Source: Owenia fusiformis | Lineage: Eukaryota > Annelida > Polychaeta > Sabellida > Oweniidae | NCBI GenBank assembly: GCA_903813345.2 | Contig: CAIIXF020000005.1 | Location: forward strand, 20,339,375 to 20,403,374 | DNA length: 64,000 nt | Direction of reading: 5' to 3' | Shown: piece by piece, positions 11,966 through 46,500 of the stretch | Layout: each line of letters starts with the position of its first letter | Numbering within the stretch: position 1 is the first letter of the stretch | Position numbers and translations under genes: made by a program | Notes under the pieces: generated by a model | What the model was told of the DNA's origin: nothing | Seen by the model: only the letters and a program-made list of their open reading frames with translations | The model's database searches: none

Positions 11966-14136
11966 CAACACTAGATACAGCTTGGATGCTGCCAACTTAA
12001 TAAGAATCTACAAAAGAAGCCGTCCTCAAAATCTACTTTCCTTCAAAATTTGGACACTAAAAGGCCTAGGTCAAAATCTAGGTTAAATTCATAGTTTTTC
12101 CTTTGACTACAACAAATCATATCTGAACCAACAACAAAAAAAAGGACTCATCTTTCATTGATCTCATATTTACCAATTCTTTTGTTTGAACATCAGGGTA
12201 TACATTCCTCTGAAGGTTCTACACTGTGTGAGCAGGACCGTGGGTCCTTTATTTCATCTGTAATGGCATTTTCCAGTTGATGGGTTTATATATAGTATTT
12301 TCAATTTTTCATGAGGGTGTCTTTAGACTACTTGTAATGGGGTGGCTAATTACTTTAATGAGTAAGGAATGTTTATCAGAACAATGTATACAAAGAAAAT
12401 CTGGCCAGTTGTCCATCAGTAAATAAATCATCATGATAAAAGTATAATTCATTAAAGCATCCATTTGTTACCGTTCTAAATCCAAATGATACATAGGTGC
12501 ATCCATTTTATACATATATGTTGACGTTTACGAAATGTTTTTCAAATATCTTCTCTATAACAGGAATATGGTAGCTGAAAATTTCACACATTGTCATACT
12601 ATGTATATTGAATATGTATGCAAGATTTCAAGTCACAATGTTAAGTAGAAACTCTGAGATCACTTACCTCGATTTGCTGTCATATTTTTGCAATGATCCC
12701 ATTCCCTATAATGTACGCGAGTACCCACGATACATTACATATAAATGACTGCATCCACATAGATCGACTAGCCACAGTGTATTATGAGAGATACTAGTGA
12801 AGGGTTGTTTTATGATAAATGAGTTCATATAACTTAATCCAAGTCATAACTGTTACTAGTATGCAAATCACACCAGCATGAGATAACATCATACTCAAAG
12901 GATAGAACGGTCCATTACTTTTCAATTGCATAAAATGGCTCTAACCCTGACAAATGTATTAATCAATTTTAACTCATACCTCTTGATCAATGGAACCATT
13001 CATATTCTAGGTACAAGTCAATGAATACGACTTTGACAAACTAAAAAGACTAAGGACCTCTAGAAGTCTAAAAGTTAATCTGACCATTGATGAAAGGTCA
13101 TGATAACACTTATATAAAATATTTAAAGTATCTAATAATTATAATGAACATATTACAATGTTACACAATGTTAGTAGATGCAAATTAAATGTCAATTGTT
13201 GTTAGTGTAATATGTATTTATCATTTAATGCTGCAATTGTATCAATGCAATGATGCAATTATACAAGTACCAAAAAGCGCCACGCCGACTTTTCCCTTAA
13301 AGCAGTTGTCTGTGACTACATGTGATATAAATATTATTAAATTATTGGATCATTATATCAAGTTTTTAGTGCTTTGGTGTGAATACATAAATATTAATTC
13401 AACTTTTGACAAAGTAGCAGCCACAAAATCCAAACAGATTTGCAAATATTTCACTTTGAGAACTAAAGGACACATTTGGGACGGGGTCAAATTGAGAAGA
13501 TTGTGAAATATAAATACTGTTTCCATGGTAACCATTTAAGTCAGAGATTGGAAATTTCTGGCACTGACTGAACATGGCATGCCCTACCAACTATAACACA
13601 ATGAATATCTGATATGCATTAGTATTTTTTTTATTGAGTGGTATTAAAGTACCCCCATGGTTTTGTTGGGGTAGGGGTATAAATTGGCCTGAGGACCGTC
13701 TGCCGCCCCTACATGAAGTCCAACTACCCAGAAAGTGTCCAGCATTATCATACAGATTGTTTGAAATATGTTGGAATGTGTGACCTTCCATGAAAAGCAG
13801 AATGCATTTCTAGAGCACTTCTACAGAATAGTCCACAGTCTATGTACATGTATCTATACTTTCTCTTGTATTTACATCATTATATTGCCTATGGTCGTTT
13901 CATCCATTCATACTAGCATCTATGGGAAGAAGGGTGTAGTTTGTACCAGAAGACACGATCACAGCGTCATGACACACTTTTATGAATCATGAAGTACGAT
14001 TCAATAATCACGGTCTCCTGGTAAACAGGGCAATCTAAATATATAACATCATCCCTTATAATCCGGATTTAGTTTATCTACGTTTTACCAAAATCACCAA
14101 TCATTCATAATTCCATTGCCAACCAACAAAGAAAAT

Positions 14137-17100
14137 ATGTTTTTATTCAAATGCATAATTCTAATTTTCAACGTATTCTATTTAGCCGAATCCCATTCTT
14201 GGGTAAATTGTGTTGATTACCTGGAAAAGAACGGAGAGGACTACGAGCACGACCTCTGTCGAGCATACCCGAGGGAAGGGGAGCGATATGTGCCAAAAAC
14301 GGGTCAATTTGGAAGAGACACGGGGTATGATAGCCGACCTGGAACTACGGGCAACGCCTGTGAGTTTCCAAGAGATGATACAAAATACACGGCTGCACAC
14401 CCGATGGCAGTGTACTACCCTGGTCAACAGTTTGTCATCACACACCCAACAAAGGTAAGCATTCCATGTCTGGTGATTGGATCTAGTACACACCTTATAT
14501 CTAAAGACCCTACATTGAGTAATCGTTTCTTGAACCCTTTTAAGAATATAAGGGCGTAAGGGTGTATATATGGGATATGGCTCGTAAACTAATTATCTAA
14601 AAAATCGTTTCTTGTCAGTCATGAGATGTCATGAAAGTCAGATCTAACGAGCAACCTTAAAAAGATTGTGTCAATTTTGGAATAATTTGGGCTCATTTTA
14701 TTCCCTGTCATTTCTATTTTCTAAAAAAGTACATGTACATACACTCCCTCCATAAGTTTGGCAACCTTAGGCCCCCACCTTGAACTATGTGTTTAAGCCT
14801 CTTTACGTTTGAATTTTTATTTACTTAACCGGCGATGAAATAACTTATAATATTGATGGAAACATAACTTGACTTTATTTCCAATAGCTCCAAATTTTCT
14901 CAATTTTTTTCCTCAATTACAATAGGTCGAAAAGTTATGATAAATTTGATGAATTTTTGAAAATCGTCATCCCCATGTAATCCAACAATGGGTTAGGAGC
15001 ATCATAAAACACGAATCAATTGATATTTAGTTGAAATAAATATACGTGTTGCGGTGCTTGAAAACAGGTGAATGGCGTAAATTAGCCCTATTTTAATGAA
15101 TTTTGAAAACCTTTCGTCCTCCACTTTTCCACATACAACAGAAAACACATACTTTTGCGAACAAAATCAACTATATATTAATACTAGAGTTTAAGAGCAA
15201 AATAATCATGTATGATTTATTAAAAATTGATCTCATATTTTTTGTTTAATGTACACCTGAAAAGTTGAAGGTAACAAAAAATGAGCAAAAAAGGTCGCTG
15301 TCAACAGATTCTATTTTTCAAACTCTATGACGTCACAATATGGGACGCTTACTAAAATTCATCCTTTGAAATAAAACTTCCATCTACCTTTATCAAGACG
15401 AAAAATAAGTATAATAGTCAGATATTAAGGTAATGAGCGTTTAAAGACAAAAAATAATTCAAAATGTAACGTGTCAACAGGGGATATTTGCCAGATGTTT
15501 TGGAAAAAACTCTTTTTAAAAAAGAACGCGCAAGAATTGTGAACGGAGTGTAGTTGATCTAAAAACTTCATCGAAACAGCTTTAAAATGATGTATAACTT
15601 TAATTACAGGGTGGGCCAAAAAAACGCCACTTTTTTTCAAAATGCTATAACTTTTTTAATTTTTGATACAAAATCATAATTCACATACCAAATGAAAATT
15701 GAGGTTGTTATCTAGCCATTGATCATGAATTATACACTTTTACTTGAATAAAATATGTCACCAGCATCTCACTTAAACATGTGGTGTACCATGAGAAATA
15801 AGCATAATTTGCATAATGTTCCTAAACTGATACGCCCTGATGACCGCAAACTAATAGCCCTAATTCAAACCCAAGTGATAGGGCATGGGGAGGTCTCCAG
15901 GAGATGGTATGAAGGCACCCGATCTAAAAAATTGCTTAACTAAAGCTGGCAATTAAGATACATTGAAACATATATAAAATAAATATAGCTAACATTTCAT
16001 TGATACTGCTATATCAGCAAGGCGACTAAAACTAAAATCGATCATCAAAATGGGGTGGCGGACCAATTGAACTCCTCTTTTTAGATCAAATATAATCCCA
16101 GTTGAAGGACTTGTTACATTATATTATTACTAAGAACCCTTGGCACTATATAACTGCAAAATTTGGGGTATGTAGGTTGGAAAATAAAAAAGTTATAGTG
16201 TCTTGAAAAAAAAGTGGCGTTTTTTTTGGCCCACCCTGTAGAATATTATCTTATAATCCGGGGAATCAAAGTTACATTCACGCGATACCCTTAAGCCCGG
16301 TATACACCGATGGGGCAAGTTGGGACCTCCATAGACTTAACATTGCGTGGGACCTTTTGGGATTTTGCCCCATGAAGTCCGTGGGACTCCATGGGACTCC
16401 GTGGGATTTTGCCCCATCTTGCCCCATCGAGTCCCACGAGGTCCCATGAAGTCCCACGTGGGACTCGGTGGGACTCGATGGGGCAAGATGGCAAAATCCC
16501 ACGGAATCCCATGGAGTCCCATCGAGAATGAACATGTTCATTCTTTCCATGGGGCATCGTGGGATTTTCGATCATATGACGTGTTGTGTGAAGCCCAACA
16601 TACACCAATGGGGCACGATGGGATTTGATGAGACTCAATGGGGCTTGATGGGATGGGACTCCATTGGGCACGATGGGGCAAAGTCATCAAGGTCCCATGG
16701 GACTTCGTGGGATTCGATGGGGCAAATTGGGATTCGATGGGGCAAGATGGGACTCGATGGGGCAAGTGGGATTTTGCCCCATTGGTGTATACCGGGCTTT
16801 AAAAAACAAATGCGCCACCTTTTTGCGACATGTCACAGTTATACAAAAAATATGTCCAGTAAAAATATTGCCTGGCCAAAAAAGAAAAGATATTTCACTT
16901 TCTGATTTTGTAAGTTGTAACATGGGGTCTTTGGAGAATTTCCCCTACCTAGAAGTCACATTTTCAAAGAAAAACAAATTTTCATAGTTGATTGAATTTG
17001 ATCATAGTTGATCATAGTTGATACACTTTTTAAAACAGCAGTTCCTGAGTTCTAGATGTAACTTTACGTGTAGATTTCGAATATGATATCACTTTGACTG

Positions 17101-19201
17101 AATTTTGAATATTTAATTACGTAAATCAATGGTATTTCTACTCGCATCTTGTCTTTTCTATTAATTCTCTATGAATATGATTGTTACCTGCATATTTATT
17201 ATTTTTGAGAATTCCAACATCTTTCCCCATTTAAATCTTAAATAACTTAAATGACACTAATATTTGTGGACCTCAAGCTGGAGTTATAAAACATGTGATG
17301 AACATACTTTATCACACTTCAAAACAATTGTAACTTCCATGATCAAATTATCTCAGATAAAAAGTGGCGAGATATCAGACCATTTTGTTGGTGGGACAGG
17401 AAGAATGCTGAGAACCAGAATTGGAATGCTTCACTCACTGAATCATGTCTTAGCTGGGTCGATCTAACAAAGTAGTTCGTAAATGTAGTCTCGTTAAGGA
17501 TAATCCATTGACATGTTTTGGCACTAGCTGGTTTCCGGCAACAAATGTCTAGTCTCCTGGCACAGTGAAAATAGCCTACTCGACACGCTTTATCAATTAC
17601 CTGATCCGAGACATGACATCGTTTTTCTACAATACTGACATATTTAGATAGAATGAATGACGTTTTTTATCCATTTATATTATAATGGAGATATTTTCCA
17701 TTTTGATTTAACACATTAACTTTGTAAAAAATAATAGCCTGTCGTTGTGAGGTTAGTTAAGAACGTTAATTACAAGCCAAAAATCAAAATAGAGCAAAAG
17801 CTGTTTTTTATTTCGTCCATTGTCGCCTGCAGGCCCATCGAACCCCCCCCCCCCCCCCCTGGCTACGGGCCTGGCTTGGTTAGTGATATATTATATAGCC
17901 CCAACATATCTCCGAACTAATCTTGATATAGGTATTTTAGACAGAGGTACATACATTTTCTCGACATGTGAATAATGCAGAAACCGTTTAATCAATGTAA
18001 GTACTATACCCTTCAATCAAATGTGATGTTTTCAGAACCACGTGGCTGATGTAAGATGCACAAGTAAGTATATCCCTGACAATGGCAATGAACTGTATAT
18101 AGGACCTAAAGATGCCCAGGGAACTCCAACATTAGCAGAGTTCCTTAACAATCCACTTGCCGACCTTGGTATATCTCCATTCGGGAATAACGTTCCCAAT
18201 GCCGTTACAACAACATACCCTAAAGAAGGGTTCCAAAATGCCCCGAAGTTCTGTGAAAATCCAGATAAAGCGTTGGCAACCAATAACGTCACCTTGCCCG
18301 ACTTGGAACCAGGTATGATTATTAAACGGCTAGCCCAGTTAGTACAACCTTGTATTGCTCAATCAATTGGCAATTTTGTCATGATATTTATTGTATTTTG
18401 ATATGCAGTTTTGCGATTTTTTACCGAAAAGCCACTAAATATATATTTAATTCGTGTGCCTTTATAAATATTTGAAAATATAAAACAGCTCTGTCAAAAT
18501 AACAATTTTCAAACAAACACAAGAGACACATTAAACGGTCCACCTAAAGCCAACTTGTCGAACAATATTTTCTCCATTTAGGTCGGTATGCAATATTGTG
18601 GATCTGGCGTTTTAATGGCAACCAAGACATGTATACCACATGTTGGGATGCTGATGTCGTAGCGACCAAAGCAGAGAGAGACGCCATTTACACACAAAGA
18701 GCATTGTCTACAAAACCACTTAGTGAGTACTGATGTATGTAGGTACGACAATGTTGGACAGTCGCGTGGTTTCTCTTGTAAATTGATCAAGGAAGGTTTG
18801 ATATAATTAGTCTGCCATCTTCGATTTGATCAATAACCCTTTAAAAGAATGCTATACACCGCTTACTATCGACTCCGTACTTGCTAGCTTTGTTCAACAA
18901 TTGATATCCATGAACTATTCTTCAAAATACCAACGCCAAGAAATGAATTTTTCCAGTCGACGTTGCCCTTGGAGGAAAAGAAGTAAGCGACTCAGCGGAC
19001 GTTGTCACAACAACCACAACAACAAGTGCAAATCCACAGCCTGAAGGTGGTGGTACGAATTCTGGTGGTAACACTGACCTAGATTCTGGTAGTCCTAACA
19101 CTAATGACGCAAATCAAACGGGAAACGGAGCTACGACGGCTCACCATGCATTCACTTGCATCAGTTTTATCATAATGTTAGCACTGGTATTAACCATATA
19201 G
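14137..19201 (+). CDS. Secreted, probably GPI-anchored LPMO-like protein with N-terminal histidine
   Basis: Four exons fit in phase: 14137-14454, 18036-18312, 18582-18722 and 18957-19201, encoding 326 residues. Residues 1-19 form a signal peptide (MFLFKCIILIFNVFYLAES), and cleavage leaves His20-Ser-Trp at the mature N-terminus. A second His (KNHVAD, His108), six cysteines (25, 41, 75, 114, 179, 219) and a Trp-rich strand followed by a Tyr (GRYAILWIWRF...MYTTCWD, Tyr216) fit a histidine-brace copper site on an immunoglobulin-like fold, as in lytic polysaccharide monooxygenases (LPMOs) and their copper-binding relatives. From about 254 the chain is Thr/Asn/Gly-rich, then ends in the hydrophobic AFTCISFIIMLALVLTI, as in GPI-anchored proteins. 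Known: LPMOs use an N-terminal His and a second His to bind copper and oxidise chitin, cellulose or other glycans. Inferred: cell-surface copper oxidase or copper binder; substrate unknown. The ATG is chosen because it gives a clean signal peptide. It does not match the AA15 pattern I would expect for animal LPMOs. Confidence 0.75.
15607..16238. mobile_element. Tc1/mariner-type non-autonomous transposon in intron 1 of the LPMO-like gene
   Basis: Inverted ends 'cagggtgggccaaaaaaacg' with ~60-bp TIRs, flanked on both sides by TA. The 632-bp interior has a short open frame (15755-15943) that may be a transposase remnant (it reads like a helix-turn-helix region) but cannot be assigned. Confidence 0.75.
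16294..16798. mobile_element. 505-bp TIR element filled with inverted GGGACTC/TGGGGCA repeats
   Basis: Ends 'agcccggtatacacc' and its inverse, flanked by TTA (or TTAA). The interior is a patchwork of direct and inverted copies of 'gatggggcaa' and 'tgggactc', so almost every frame on both strands is open. These overlapping frames (16278-16905) are by-products of the repeat structure, not genes. Strong hairpins are expected. Confidence 0.75.
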
Positions 19202-19282
19202 ATGAATGATACTACCAGACCATCAGTTTTATCATAATGTTAGCACTGGTATTAACCATATAGATGGATGATATTACCAGAG
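19159..19282 (+). repeat. 62-bp tandem duplication over the stop codon of the LPMO-like gene
   Basis: The last 14 codons, the stop and the first bases of the 3' UTR (from 'catcagttttatcataatg') are repeated directly at 19221 with about three changes. Only the first copy is translated. Confidence 0.85.
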
Positions 19283-36936: not shown

Positions 36937-37992
36937 TACTCCTCAAAAAGTTAAGGACCTCATAGGTTTACATGTTAACCCCCATATTTGTTTAACGACT
37001 GTTTTCTAAGCGGGAAACAAAAGAAATTGGTTGGGTTGCCACATCATGATAAACCATGACATCTCAATTCTTCTCAGCCCTGAGATGCCATGATATAATG
37101 AGCTTGATTTGGCGATCTAGGAGAGCCCAAAATTGAGGATTTTTGAGATCTTTCATCACAGCTCATATTTCATTAAATTGGGGTGATCAAACTTGTGTAC
37201 GCGTGCCTGTGCTAATATCTGCTGTTAAATACAATGCCTATTATGTAATGTATTGACATTATGTAAATGATTACATGATAACTATCACACTTATTTACAG
37301 TTATAACTCTTCCCATCCGATGTGCTCAGATGTGCCTCATAATATCAGAGCATGTTTCAGGTGAAACAGAAAGATGCTATGAGTATCAGAATGGGGTTGC
37401 CATAAGTCATATGAGGAACGATCCATCCATCCGATTGCTCTCAAAATTGAGATTGTAAGAGATAATTAAATTTGCTAAATTGTCTACTCGACAAAAATAT
37501 GATTTAATTGTCCAGGCTTTCCAAAAGTTAATGGTTTCAAATTCAATAATTTTTTAATGAACCTCTTATTGAAATAACACAGGTGGTTCAGTGAGGTGGT
37601 CAAAATTACTTTAACGCTCCGTATCGCTAATTATAACAACATAAGCGAGACATTTAGCATGTAAAATGTAAAATCATTCGATTTTCTACTTAGAAAGTAT
37701 TTTTAATAAATGTTTTGCTGAATAGATATTCCAAAATCTGAGTTGCCCCTAAGCCACCATTCCCCATTTGTTTAACATGGGATCTGCCATTTTTGTTCAT
37801 GTTCATTTCATGAAATTCATCAATTTTGACAGAATGTAATGGAGATATAACATTGAACCGTTGCGGACTTTATAGGGAATAGAATCAAGATACAGATTTA
37901 TTTACTTTATTGGGATTTCTTAGAAAACAGTCGTTAAACAAATATGGGGGTTAACATGTAAACCTATGAGGTCCTTAACTTTTTGAGGAGTA
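36937..37992. mobile_element. Tc1/mariner-type non-autonomous transposon, 1056 bp
   Basis: Ends 'tactcctcaaaaagttaagg' and inverse, with TIRs of about 85 bp extending through 'aacgactgttttctaag'. Flanked by TA on both sides. No transposase remains. Its right end directly abuts the LINE. Confidence 0.85.
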
Positions 37993-37995
37993 TAG

Positions 37996-39950
37996 TAAGC
38001 TGTATATAGAAGAGACGGGTCCACAAGTAAGATTAAACAATTTTCACCTTCACCTTACCAATATTGGTAAAAATCTAGCCAAGGAGATTCCAAAATCCAA
38101 AAAATGCTTTAATGAATACCTAGCAAGAGCTCAAAAAGTTCAATCATCTATTTATCTCAAAAAGACCTCAAAAACTGAGCTTGAATTAGAAATGTGTCTT
38201 CTAAAATCTTCCTCGCCTGGACCTGATGGGATTCTACCATCACTTATTAAGTCTGCAAGACAGTTTTTAATTGATCCACTCTTGTATATATTTAACTTAT
38301 CTTTTAAATCTGGTATTTTCCCAGACGCCCTCAAATTGGCCAAAGTAACACCTGTATTTAAAAAAGGTGTCACTACAAATCCTTCGAACTATAGACCAAT
38401 TTCAGTTTTATCTGTATTTTCTAAATTGTTAGAAAAGCTCATGCACGCCAAACTCACTGGTTTTTTAGAACGTTTTGAAATTATTTTTACTTATCAATTT
38501 GGATTTCAGAAATTCAACTCTACCTACATGGCCATTTTATATTTCATTGAACAAATTCGAAAATCAACTGATTTGGGGAAAACGAGCATTGGCATAACAT
38601 TAGATTTTTCCAAGGCCTTTGACACAATTAATCATGACATTTTGATACAAAAACTTGAATATTATGGCATCAGAGGAATAGCTAAGTCCTGGTTTGAAAG
38701 TTATTTAAAAGACCGCAAACAATATGTCACCATTAACAATTATGAATCTAAACAATCATCTCTAAATTGTGGTGTTCCGCAGGGCTCGGTACTTGGACCA
38801 CTATTATTTATTCTTTACATAAATGATCTGCCTTTTGTTGCCCCTAATCTAAAATTTATTATGTTTGCTGATGACACCAATCTTCTTGATAGTGATTATG
38901 ATTTAAATGAACTTATAACTAGAACTAATGCAAACTTGAATTCAATAGATGACTGGATAAAAGCAAACAAACTTTCACTTAATATTGGCAAAACCAATGC
39001 TATTCTATTTGGACCCCAAAAAAATCAAACAAATCTGAATCTTAAAATACGCAATGAGAACATAAATTTCCGGGAAAAAATTGACTTTCTTGGAATTATT
39101 ATTGATAAAAACTTGAAATTTAAAGAGCACATAAAATCTGTTGAAACAAAGATTTCTCGCGTCATTGGTTCTCTTTATCACATTAAACATCTACTTCAAA
39201 TAGACAGTTTCAAAACAATTTACTACTCATTGATACACTCTCAATTAAATTATTGCAACATAATCTGGGGTAACACATTTAAATCATTTTATGATCGTCT
39301 ACATAAACTGCAGAAACAATTCTTAAGGCTAGCTTTAAATAAGGATAGACTTTCTCACTCCGCTCCCCTATTTAAAGATCTTAGAATATTAAGTATTTTT
39401 GATGTCAACAGATATTGTACTGGTCAGTTCATGTACAAAATCTTTAATAAGCACCCCAGTCTTCCAAAAAATCTATTTCAAGACTTGTTTGATATCAACA
39501 TTAATATTCATCATCATTACACAAGACAATTGCATTATTTTCATATCCCTAAATGCTCTAAACTTTCCCTTCGCTTTCTGGGTCCTAATCTTTGGAATGC
39601 TCTACCACATGATATTAAAAAATGCTCCACTCTAAATATTTTCAAATCTTCATATAAAAAACTACTCATCTATCGATAATGTATAATACCAATATCATAC
39701 TATACTGTTGATTTTATACTGGTACCCGATTTTTGTAACATTTTTACATTGTACATCCTTAGATTAATTGTTAATACCATTTTTATATACCTACATGTAA
39801 CATAATATAAGTGTTTTCTTTTATATGTAGTCTAGTTGTCATTTTAATGATTTCTGTTAAACCGCAACATATACCCACTAGGGTGTCTAGCGGCTTGTTT
39901 TTATAGTGTATATTATATAAGAATTATGAAATGAAAATAAATAATTGAAA
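37996..39950 (+). mobile_element. 5'-truncated LINE (jockey/CR1-like)
   Basis: Begins immediately after the preceding DNA transposon and ends in a short AT-rich tail with 'aataattgaaaa' repeats after a ~270-bp 3' UTR. The endonuclease region is absent. The reverse transcriptase frame is uninterrupted, so the insertion is probably recent. Confidence 0.85.
37997..39679 (+). CDS. LINE ORF2, reverse transcriptase and C-terminal region (5' partial)
   Basis: The frame is open from the truncation to the stop, about 560 residues, with no internal stop. Reverse transcriptase landmarks in order: SSSPGPDGILPSLIK; VTPVFKKG and NYRPISVLSVFSKLLEK; LDFSKAFDTINHDIL with the first catalytic Asp; CGVPQGSVLGPLLFILYIND; FADDTNLL, the catalytic FADD box; NIGKTNAILFG; FLGIIIDKNLKF. 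The thumb and a C-terminal region ending near NLWNALPHDIK follow. The order and wording match the jockey/CR1 group of non-LTR retrotransposons. The first methionine (38192) is internal to the original ORF, so the natural start is lost. Confidence 0.9.
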   Translation, partial: KLYIEETGPQVRLNNFHLHLTNIGKNLAKEIPKSKKCFNEYLARAQKVQSSIYLKKTSKTELELEMCLLKSSSPGPDGILPSLIKSARQFLIDPLLYIFNLSFKSGIFPDALKLAKVTPVFKKGVTTNPSNYRPISVLSVFSKLLEKLMHAKLTGFLERFEIIFTYQFGFQKFNSTYMAILYFIEQIRKSTDLGKTSIGITLDFSKAFDTINHDILIQKLEYYGIRGIAKSWFESYLKDRKQYVTINNYESKQSSLNCGVPQGSVLGPLLFILYINDLPFVAPNLKFIMFADDTNLLDSDYDLNELITRTNANLNSIDDWIKANKLSLNIGKTNAILFGPQKNQTNLNLKIRNENINFREKIDFLGIIIDKNLKFKEHIKSVETKISRVIGSLYHIKHLLQIDSFKTIYYSLIHSQLNYCNIIWGNTFKSFYDRLHKLQKQFLRLALNKDRLSHSAPLFKDLRILSIFDVNRYCTGQFMYKIFNKHPSLPKNLFQDLFDININIHHHYTRQLHYFHIPKCSKLSLRFLGPNLWNALPHDIKKCSTLNIFKSSYKKLLIYR

Positions 39951-43519: not shown

Positions 43520-46500
43520 ATGAGATTATTATTACTGTTGGCAATCGCTGTGACTCTTGTAACTGGAATTCGCAGACCAAGAACCGCTTCATCATCGGGT
43601 AAGTGATGATTCCTCAGAAGTTTAGATGGATGAAGTCGGCACATGAAAACTAAATGGTAATTAGCATACCCACCGCCTAGACGAGGCAATTTGCTCGGAG
43701 CTGGAAACCAACGAGTATTGACGAAGAGATACTGGTCGGATCATTTTCGTAGATTATATTACCATGGAAGACCAAGCACAAGCATGTACAGCCAAGTAAA
43801 AGCACTCGTTTGATTATTGCCTTGAGAGTTTTGTCTCATTTCAAAAACATCCTAGACCCCACGCTTGCTCTATTTCGCAGTTATTGCTTTCATTTTCTTA
43901 CTTTCTGTATTTAATCATAGTATTATGGATTTAGATTCAGATACGACAGATGAAAGGGTACAGATCCTCTGGGATACATACAAGAAATACGAAGACAAGG
44001 GTACCTTTAAAACTGGAGATCTACCCAACAAAAGTTCATGTGGACCGTCTGATATTAATCTTCACATTCATGCCGAAGATGACCATCACAACGATGACGA
44101 ACACGATCATATCGCGGAACATGATCACCAGGAGGCACACGTACATCTGCATGTGAAGGTGGAACCCTCGAAGATGATGCAAAAAATGATGATAAAGCAC
44201 AGATATGAAATGGACGAAGGTGATGTATGATTCTTAGCCATTTTGATTGAAAATTGACAAGACCCATCAAAAATACATTTTCTATGTGTGTTAAAAATTA
44301 GTCTGTATTATGTAACTTTGTTCCTCTAAGGTCGCTAAATATAACATGTGGTCCAAATGGGAAAATCCAATCAAATTTTTAAATTAGGAGACAGTACACT
44401 CAGAAATCACATTTTCTCATTTTCAATATTTACTGAAGATGTTCATTATATATGACGTTACAAGTGGAATTTTTCTCGAAGCATGTGGCTGGAGGTCAAT
44501 CACTGCATATATAACAATGTCTTCAATCTTCGGAATATATAGACAAGGTCCTGGAAGACAATGTTATGATAGTCATCTTTTTCAGACCAAGCAGCCTATG
44601 GTGTCTGTTTCATGATCCCTAATGCAGTTGGTACACGAGCTGGTCAAGTCATAGGAATGATAATGCTAAAACAACAGGTAATAGCTGAACGTTGGAATAA
44701 ATACACTCCTCTTTGGCTATTTGTGGGACACATGATTTGTCGGATACGAATGGTCAAGTATAGCAGTAGAACCATATCAGTGACATTCCAAAATAAGCTA
44801 AATATTTTCTTGTTATTTAAGCAGATAATAGATAGACGTTTTGTAAATATTTTAATTACGATTAAACCCCACTTCCGAATCCCGAATCCCAATCATCCGA
44901 ATCCTAATGGTCCAAATCCCAATGGTCCTTATCCTTTCCTCCGAATCCGAATCCGAATCGGCCGAATCCCAATCGTCCAAATCCCAATGGTCCGAATTCC
45001 AATCGTTCAAATCCCAATGGTCGGAATTCCGCGTCGTAACGCTACGATTATTGACTAAAATCGGCGTTTAGTCATGTTTATTGGAAATATGACATGGGTT
45101 TAGGAAAAACACCGACCGCCGACCACCGACCAGTCACTCTTCACAGTTAGGTACACGTGGTGGGTGGTTGGCTGTCGGTCTTTTTCATAAAGATGAAAAG
45201 ATGCAAAATTAGAAGAAAGTAAAACTAAAACTGGGAATCCAATGGCTATAGTACCTTTACAAGGTCGTGGTTTAAAAATGTATTTAATCTTTCCAAATCA
45301 CGATGAAAAACGTAACATCGTCGTGTGTAATGTCATATTTTTAAGTGATGTCTCAGTTGTTAGAAGACCAATTTCATCCTGGTGAGTCACTTTGGATTAG
45401 GATGAGAAAACTCACGTAACATTGTATTAAGTTCATTAATATGAAACGCAATAACAAAAACACACTTAACATTATCGGTGTTCACGTCGTAACGTAATGT
45501 TTGATTTCTCAGTTGTTAACGTCAACTGGTAAAAACTGCATTCAATATGACAAAAAAAGCTTTCTAATGGTGTACCGTATCTTCACATTCGGTGTCTGTG
45601 TAGGTTTACCGATGAAAGCATCAGTCTGCTCAAATTATATCACCCTGTGTTGTACCGTAGCGAACTGTCACGCTTAATTCGGTACATACCATGTGTTGTT
45701 AAAACAAATTTAATTCTGAATAAAAATCACCACTAACGACCTATAATGAAACAAGGAACGGGTCAATGACGTCTCTGCTAGATCATACGTCATTTCACAC
45801 CGTATATTTCAGAGGAACAAAGATACCGAGATGAGGGTGATGCTAAGGGGCCTTGATACCGAGAACGCTGCCGACAATGCTGATCACATGCGCAAGTTGT
45901 TCCTGCATGAGGCTGGCATAGTAGCTCTAGGTGCTTGCGAGAATGTGGGAAAGGTAGTGAAACTGTCCAACAGGGGTCACCACCATTACCATCACCATGA
46001 CAGTCATGAGGATATGGAAACAGATATGTGAGTAAAGTCGTCTGCTAGACTAAATAGCAAGGACTAAGGTTTACATAACGGATGTGGACTTAAAATCGAC
46101 ATTTCTCTTTCTTCCATCGTTGCCGTACTTTTAAAAAGTTGGAACTAGCTGACTGACAATCTCTGCTTTTCATGCGCTTTTAAAATCAATGAGAAAACTG
46201 TTGGAGGCCAATGCCAGGATTACAAAAACATTTTATGTTGTCACAAATCAACCTCCAAATGAATCATTTTATGTTTACTTTCAGGAAAGATGGAAATGTA
46301 GGCAGTTTTACGTGTGATGCAATGGGTAACGTTAACACCAACTTGACAGCAGGCGCTCTGGCGTTGTTTGGCGATTCTTCAGCATTTGGAAGAACCATTG
46401 TGGTAAGAACATGCGACCTTATACCATTTGCTTGAAACGGGGGGCGAAAAGGCCGAAATGCTTGAAATGGTTGAAATGAAAGATAATGTGAAAACAGATT

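Follow-up and report, generated by a model that had tools for sequence, protein, structure and literature searches.

A four-exon gene of the annelid Owenia fusiformis encodes a distant relative of the lytic polysaccharide monooxygenases (LPMOs), which in fungi cleave resistant polysaccharides such as chitin; its branch is probably poorly described and hardly studied in animals. The gene lies on the + strand of a 64,000-nucleotide stretch (the window: assembly GCA_903813345.2, contig CAIIXF020000005.1, positions 20,339,375 to 20,403,374), itself within a 42-Mb contig of the 498-Mb genome searched. The reading favoured here, with modest confidence and from sequence comparison, is that the product would be a secreted, probably glycosylphosphatidylinositol (GPI)-anchored histidine-brace copper protein of the LPMO superfamily, in a branch with the Pfam family DUF7492 and more distantly with the AA11 LPMOs, and that it may act as a chitin-type peroxygenase. 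An earlier note, made from the letters of the window alone, had proposed a membrane-tethered copper protein of LPMO or X325 type; that interpretation is partly supported, its LPMO side by the DUF7492 and AA11 matches, while on its X325 side the nearest relatives found lie elsewhere.

The gene and its product

When spliced, the four exons encode 326 residues and end in a stop codon, and every intron has GT-AG borders; the coding span runs from the ATG at 14137, the first methionine in its frame (open reading frame 14062-14559), to the stop at 19199-19201. The earlier note had drawn the gene in the same place, and its reading of the protein is borne out by the frame, the introns, the family matches and the existence of paralogues: His20, His108 (preceded by Lys106-Asn107) and Tyr216 stand at the positions it named, and the mature domain has the six cysteines it counted (25, 41, 75, 114, 179 and 219), with two more outside, Cys6 in the signal peptide and Cys313 in the tail. 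The product consists of a hydrophobic leader, a domain of about 225 residues, a stalk rich in Thr, Ser, Gly and Asn, and a hydrophobic end that no cytoplasmic tail follows. N-glycosylation sequons occur at N190 in the domain and N298 in the stalk.

A search of the genome at E up to 1 returned eight exon-level matches. Three lie in the window gene, and the search brought to light two further genes of the family, called here paralogues B and C. Cleavage of the window protein before His20 would satisfy the -3/-1 rule (A17-E18-S19 before H20, read by eye), and in both paralogues too a hydrophobic leader abuts the sequence HSW; leader and alignment thus fit a mature N-terminal histidine in all three genes, the cleavage itself being putative. 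At the other end, both the stalk and the hydrophobic C-terminus of the earlier note are present: the final 17 residues, which close the protein, are hydrophobic (Kyte-Doolittle 2.7 in a 15-residue window from 310), a tail of GPI-signal type by hydropathy, and thus a putative membrane anchor.

Downstream of the stop codon AATAAA occurs twice, beginning 237 and 332 bases after it. The 3' end also holds a 61-base tandem duplication (window 19159-19281, 97% identical, spacing 62) in which the codons of the hydrophobic tail and the stop are copied, so that the last coding bases reappear in the 3' untranslated region.

Family relationships

All three proteins pass the curated Pfam cut-off of DUF7492 (27 bits), with 28.4 bits for the window protein (E 1.2e-6) and 30.2 and 31.5 bits for the others. 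This family (PF24320), which we take to be fungal with an HSWVE N-terminus, has no assigned function, and its name was absent from the literature searched. Two other models fall short for the window protein: DUF2141 (14.5 bits, cut-off 24.4) and LPMO_10, the AA15 model (14.9 bits, cut-off 23). LPMO_10 finds eight places in the genome, none of them the window gene, which agrees with the earlier placement of the protein outside the AA15 pattern.

Among solved structures, credible E-values are reached by AA11 LPMOs alone. When the PDB was searched (E up to 10), the window protein by itself had two matches only, both AA11 LPMOs (1.9e-4, 2e-4); with a profile of the three proteins, the top three of six were AA11 (1.5e-5, 2.1e-5, 0.0092), the rest being three other chains with E-values of 1, 1.7 and 2. 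Comparison by hhalign with an alignment of three AA11 sequences (4mah, 9exj, 7p3u) gave a probability of 95.2 and E 2.8e-8 over 50 columns, a stretch that takes in the Trp-rich strand near the C-terminus and the motif of the axial Tyr and pairs Tyr216 with AoAA11 Tyr140 and Asp214 with Glu138; the score of 53.0 was reached by none of 100 shuffled-column controls (maximum 19.65), nor by the reversed alignment (19.44).

Presumed copper ligands

AA11 is too remote to guide an alignment of the N-terminal half, and DUF7492 was therefore chosen as a bridge, in the form of a fungal DUF7492-type sequence that is not a database record. This stand-in scores 403 bits against the family (E 5e-121, with its residues 1-235 falling on profile positions 4-238) and can thus be taken to represent it fairly; the animal proteins, at 28-31 bits, are very divergent from the family. 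Local hhalign of the stand-in sequence against the three animal proteins scored 38.9 (none of 100 shuffles reached this; maximum 22.07) and paired fungal His93 with His108 (mature His89) and fungal Tyr226 with Tyr216, while the global mode paired His1 with His1. The mature His1, the second His, the Tyr of the C-terminal motif and the Cys that follows it are co-linear in the animal and stand-in fungal proteins. Four histidines are invariant in the three genes, and only two of these, mature His1 and His89, align with a histidine of the stand-in; His69 and His84 (mature numbering) correspond to other residues in the fungal and AA11 rows alike.

MAFFT, run without constraints on the three animal proteins, the fungal stand-in and three AA11 sequences, is in keeping with this. 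A single column takes His1 of the animal proteins, of the fungal one and of both AA11 rows that have an N-terminus (the third begins further in). His108 coincides with the fungal His and stands one column ahead of AA11 His60/61, Tyr216 lies on the AA11 axial Tyr (AoAA11 Tyr140) and Asp214 on Glu138; half of the six cysteines, those at mature 56, 95 and 200, share columns with AA11 Cys29, 65 and 143. By alignment, then, the protein appears to have the second histidine of the LPMO superfamily.

The active-site motif itself is altered. AfAA11B has His1, His61, Glu139 and Tyr141 (PMC12186267), and chain 9exj shows the same residues at these numbers; the Tyr-Glu pair, E-x-Y, is described as unique to AA11 (PMC12186267). 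The window protein has Asp214-x-Tyr216 instead, and for this reason the gene is not filed as AA11; in this it also differs from the fungal stand-in, which has E-x-Y. An acid is still present, however, which is counted in favour of the LPMO reading: the initial peroxygenase rate of the AfAA11B variant E139D was like that of the wild type (2.2 vs 1.9 uM/s), with a lowered apparent monooxygenase rate (0.026 vs 0.088 per s) and reduced stability (PMC12186267).

Several results weigh against placing the protein in this way. The significant similarity to AA11 is confined to about 50 C-terminal columns; the N-terminal half of the window protein alone gives no DUF7492 match, and those of the paralogues match weakly (E 0.051, 0.010). 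The two AA11 sequences tried have no DUF7492 match, and the fungal stand-in has no PDB match at E up to 10 and exceeds shuffles just marginally when compared with AA11. Forced hhalign, whether global or with a low posterior cut-off, misses both the His1-His1 pairing and that of His89 with AA11 His60, so that the placement of the histidines on AA11 depends on MAFFT alone and DUF7492 is the firmer bridge. The N/Q/E-x-F/Y motif, a usual though not universal LPMO feature (PMC5320794), is not strictly present, since all three genes have D-x-Y, with the Tyr kept and Asp in first position. An AlphaFold2 model, made for the catalytic domain of paralogue B from an alignment that added the exons of the window gene and of C, had a mean pLDDT of 37.4 and a pTM of 0.27, giving no usable fold.

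A histidine brace need not imply action on polysaccharides. Another possibility is a GPI-tethered copper scavenger or chaperone like fungal X325/Bim1, handing copper to an uptake system: the brace is found in X325/Bim1, Bim1 is GPI-anchored and X325 has a copper aspartate (PMC10952591), and the window protein has a GPI-type tail, a presumed brace and an Asp in its active-site motif. This Asp sits, however, where AA11 has its second-sphere Glu; the axial Tyr is retained; the paralogues carry carbohydrate-binding-type additions (see below), and B ends without a hydrophobic tail. As to sequence, no X325/BIM1-type model, which Pfam should include, appeared in Pfam scans at E up to 10, nor were X325/Bim1 structures among the PDB matches of the three-sequence profile, with weak matches filtered; of the relatives found, AA11 and DUF7492 are the nearest. 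Such a role is considered unlikely, though it deserves some weight.

Paralogues and selection

With each of B and C the domain of the window protein shares 58% identity. Synonymous sites are saturated among the three genes (proportion of synonymous differences, pS, 0.79-0.89), while nonsynonymous divergence (dN) is 0.34-0.35 between the window gene and B or C and 0.18 between B and C. Introns 1 and 2 fall in the same codon and phase in the window gene and paralogue C, and intron 3 shares its phase and lies within one or two codons (all by eye). The window gene is real and under purifying selection. A decayed copy or chance chain of exons, to which the repeat-filled intron 1 might point, is very improbable given the open frame and consensus splice sites, the intron positions common with a paralogue, and a dN far under the synonymous divergence.

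Paralogue C is on the minus strand of C4 (4.374-4.377 Mb; region examined C4:4.371-4.377 Mb, L018 and L028) and has one intron more than the window gene. Paralogue B, on the minus strand of C5 at 7.335 Mb, has its entire catalytic domain in a single exon, whereas the C4 paralogue has introns in both parts; for this reason B looks like a retrocopy or a case of heavy intron loss. Within the region of B (L017, C5:7333000-7338500, minus strand) the catalytic open reading frame is at L017:2144-2824, and a TSP1 and CBM2-like part is in another exon. The TSP1 domain is recognised in B by Pfam (E 6.1e-9) and in C by eye, and the module at the C-terminus of the paralogues has domains that bind chitin and cellulose as its leading Foldseek rows, making a CBM2-like module probable. 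About 4 kb past the last matched exon of C there is an additional CBM2-like piece (C4:4367431-4367568, L030), with two in-match TGA codons.

HSW, THPTKNH, D-x-Y and the six cysteines are invariant in the three genes, as are 115 of 227 columns overall, with three sequences only. The invariance of the presumed ligands at saturated synonymous divergence suggests that the metal site matters. It also speaks against a recognition role for an LPMO-like protein, which the presumed membrane tethering, the TSP1 domains of the paralogues and the altered D-x-Y motif would otherwise favour; yet many other residues are invariant too. A recognition role, in connection with which CWR-1 (PMC9545521) is named, seems rather improbable.

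Possible role and relation to known families

If the favoured reading of a membrane-held, LPMO-type copper protein is correct, removal of the signal peptide would free the amino group of His20. One copper ion would be bound by this group, the ring of His20 and His108; the alignment suggests Tyr216 as the axial residue and Asp214 as part of the second sphere. At the surface of cells bearing the protein, reduced copper with H2O2 (or O2) could then oxidise a C-H bond in a beta-1,4-linked glycan, chitin being the likeliest, and so loosen or trim the chitinous or other glycan matrix of the animal itself; its GH18-type chitinases (the GH18 model has 86 exon-level matches in the genome) might be partners in this work. 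The two paralogues would be a freely secreted form, held to the polymer by the CBM2-like module rather than to the membrane by lipid. Cell-surface anchoring of such an enzyme would suggest matrix remodelling over digestion. A fuller version, put forward tentatively and held to be somewhat doubtful, is that an uncharacterised DUF7492-type LPMO family is common to fungi and animals, that its animal members come in GPI-tethered and secreted LPMO-TSP1-CBM2 formats with a natural Asp-x-Tyr, and that they may act on the animal's own matrix, not on food.

The characterised animal LPMOs in the cited papers are AA15 (PMC5823890, PMC10952591), a family of invertebrate histidine-brace proteins, many with an axial Tyr (PMC5823890) and some with GPI anchors (PMC8615602). 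Animal members of neighbouring LPMO groups were already counted in print in 2017 and 2019. Voshol et al. reported bivalves, sea anemones and stony corals as carriers of LPMO14 (PMC5320794); its renaming as AA16 follows in part from PMC6950343. AA16 thus offers other non-AA15 LPMO relatives in animals, some of them GPI-anchored (PMC8615602). The LPMO16 group of Voshol et al. (An07g08250) is mostly fungal with some animal members (Fungi 78%, Metazoa 4%, Oomycetes 6%) and is near AA16, AA14 and AA11 (PMC6950343); likened to the window gene and DUF7492 by description alone, it may be the same family. As to anchoring, the extract of PMC8615602 gives GPI anchors for AA9, AA14, AA15, AA16 and X325, not for AA11, and AfAA11B and AoAA11 have a linker and X278 module where the window protein has its GPI-type tail (PMC12186267); powdery-mildew LPMO-like proteins with AA11-like folds include some with predicted GPI anchors (PMC8035642). 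No study of an animal protein like the present one was recognised in titles and abstracts among the matches listed, subscription literature being mostly outside the search.

Should the interpretation hold, a second, AA11/DUF7492-like animal lineage would widen the set of glycan-acting animal copper oxidases, DUF7492 would gain a first functional clue, and the gene would offer a natural test of a second-sphere Asp beside an axial Tyr.

Features of the gene and other elements of the window

Table 1. Positions of the parts of the LPMO-like gene, in window coordinates.
Feature	Position	Strand	Remarks
Exon 1	14137..14454	+	Signal peptide, mature HSW N-terminus, through THPTK; paralogous exons exist
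Signal peptide, 19 aa, presumed cleavage between AES and HSW	14137..14193	+	Sequence, hydropathy, both paralogues alike
His20 codon (mature His1), presumed copper ligand	14194..14196	+	Shares column with His1 of AA11 4mah and 9exj and of the fungal DUF7492 stand-in
Intron 1, phase 0	14455..18035	+	Contains two inverted-repeat elements and a multi-copy repeat
Exon 2	18036..18312	+	NHVADVRC ... LEP and first base of a Gly codon; bordering intron positions shared with C4 paralogue
His108 codon (mature His89), presumed second brace histidine	18039..18041	+	Gap-free surroundings against His93 of the fungal DUF7492 stand-in; AA11 His60 one column off (MAFFT)
Exon 3	18582..18722	+	Trp-rich strand and D-M-Y motif; hhalign against AA11 E 2.8e-8
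Asp214-Met-Tyr216	18626..18634	+	Presumed axial Tyr and second-sphere acid (Asp; Glu in AA11); aligned with AoAA11 Tyr140 / Glu138
Exon 4	18957..19201	+	Thr/Gly/Asn-rich stalk, hydrophobic tail, stop
Low-complexity stalk including N298-Q-T sequon	19001..19147	+	Sequence
C-terminal hydrophobic tail, GPI-signal type	19148..19198	+	Hydropathy

Elsewhere in the window, a His/Asp-rich stretch at 43856-44230 (HDHIAEHDHQEAHVHLHV) has the look of a metal-binding sequence, with a weak match to the zinc-uptake-type ZrgA (E 0.0098, 16.3 bits, cut-off 27.4). An open frame of 566 residues at 37979-39679 contains a reverse transcriptase domain (RVT_1, E 3.4e-34) and is probably a non-LTR element.

Of the two elements in intron 1, that at 15605-16240 has 33-nt inverted repeats (82%) with TA at both ends and reads as mariner-like, and that at 16293-16799 has 26-nt inverted repeats (96%) and an interior filled with a repeat of about 10 bases of the TGGGACTC type. 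Next to them, at 15000-15600, is a repeat for which the best 40 of 619 candidates scored comprise 39 other full-length copies, 95-96% identical, and one partial match at 89%; identities this high suggest that its spread was probably recent.

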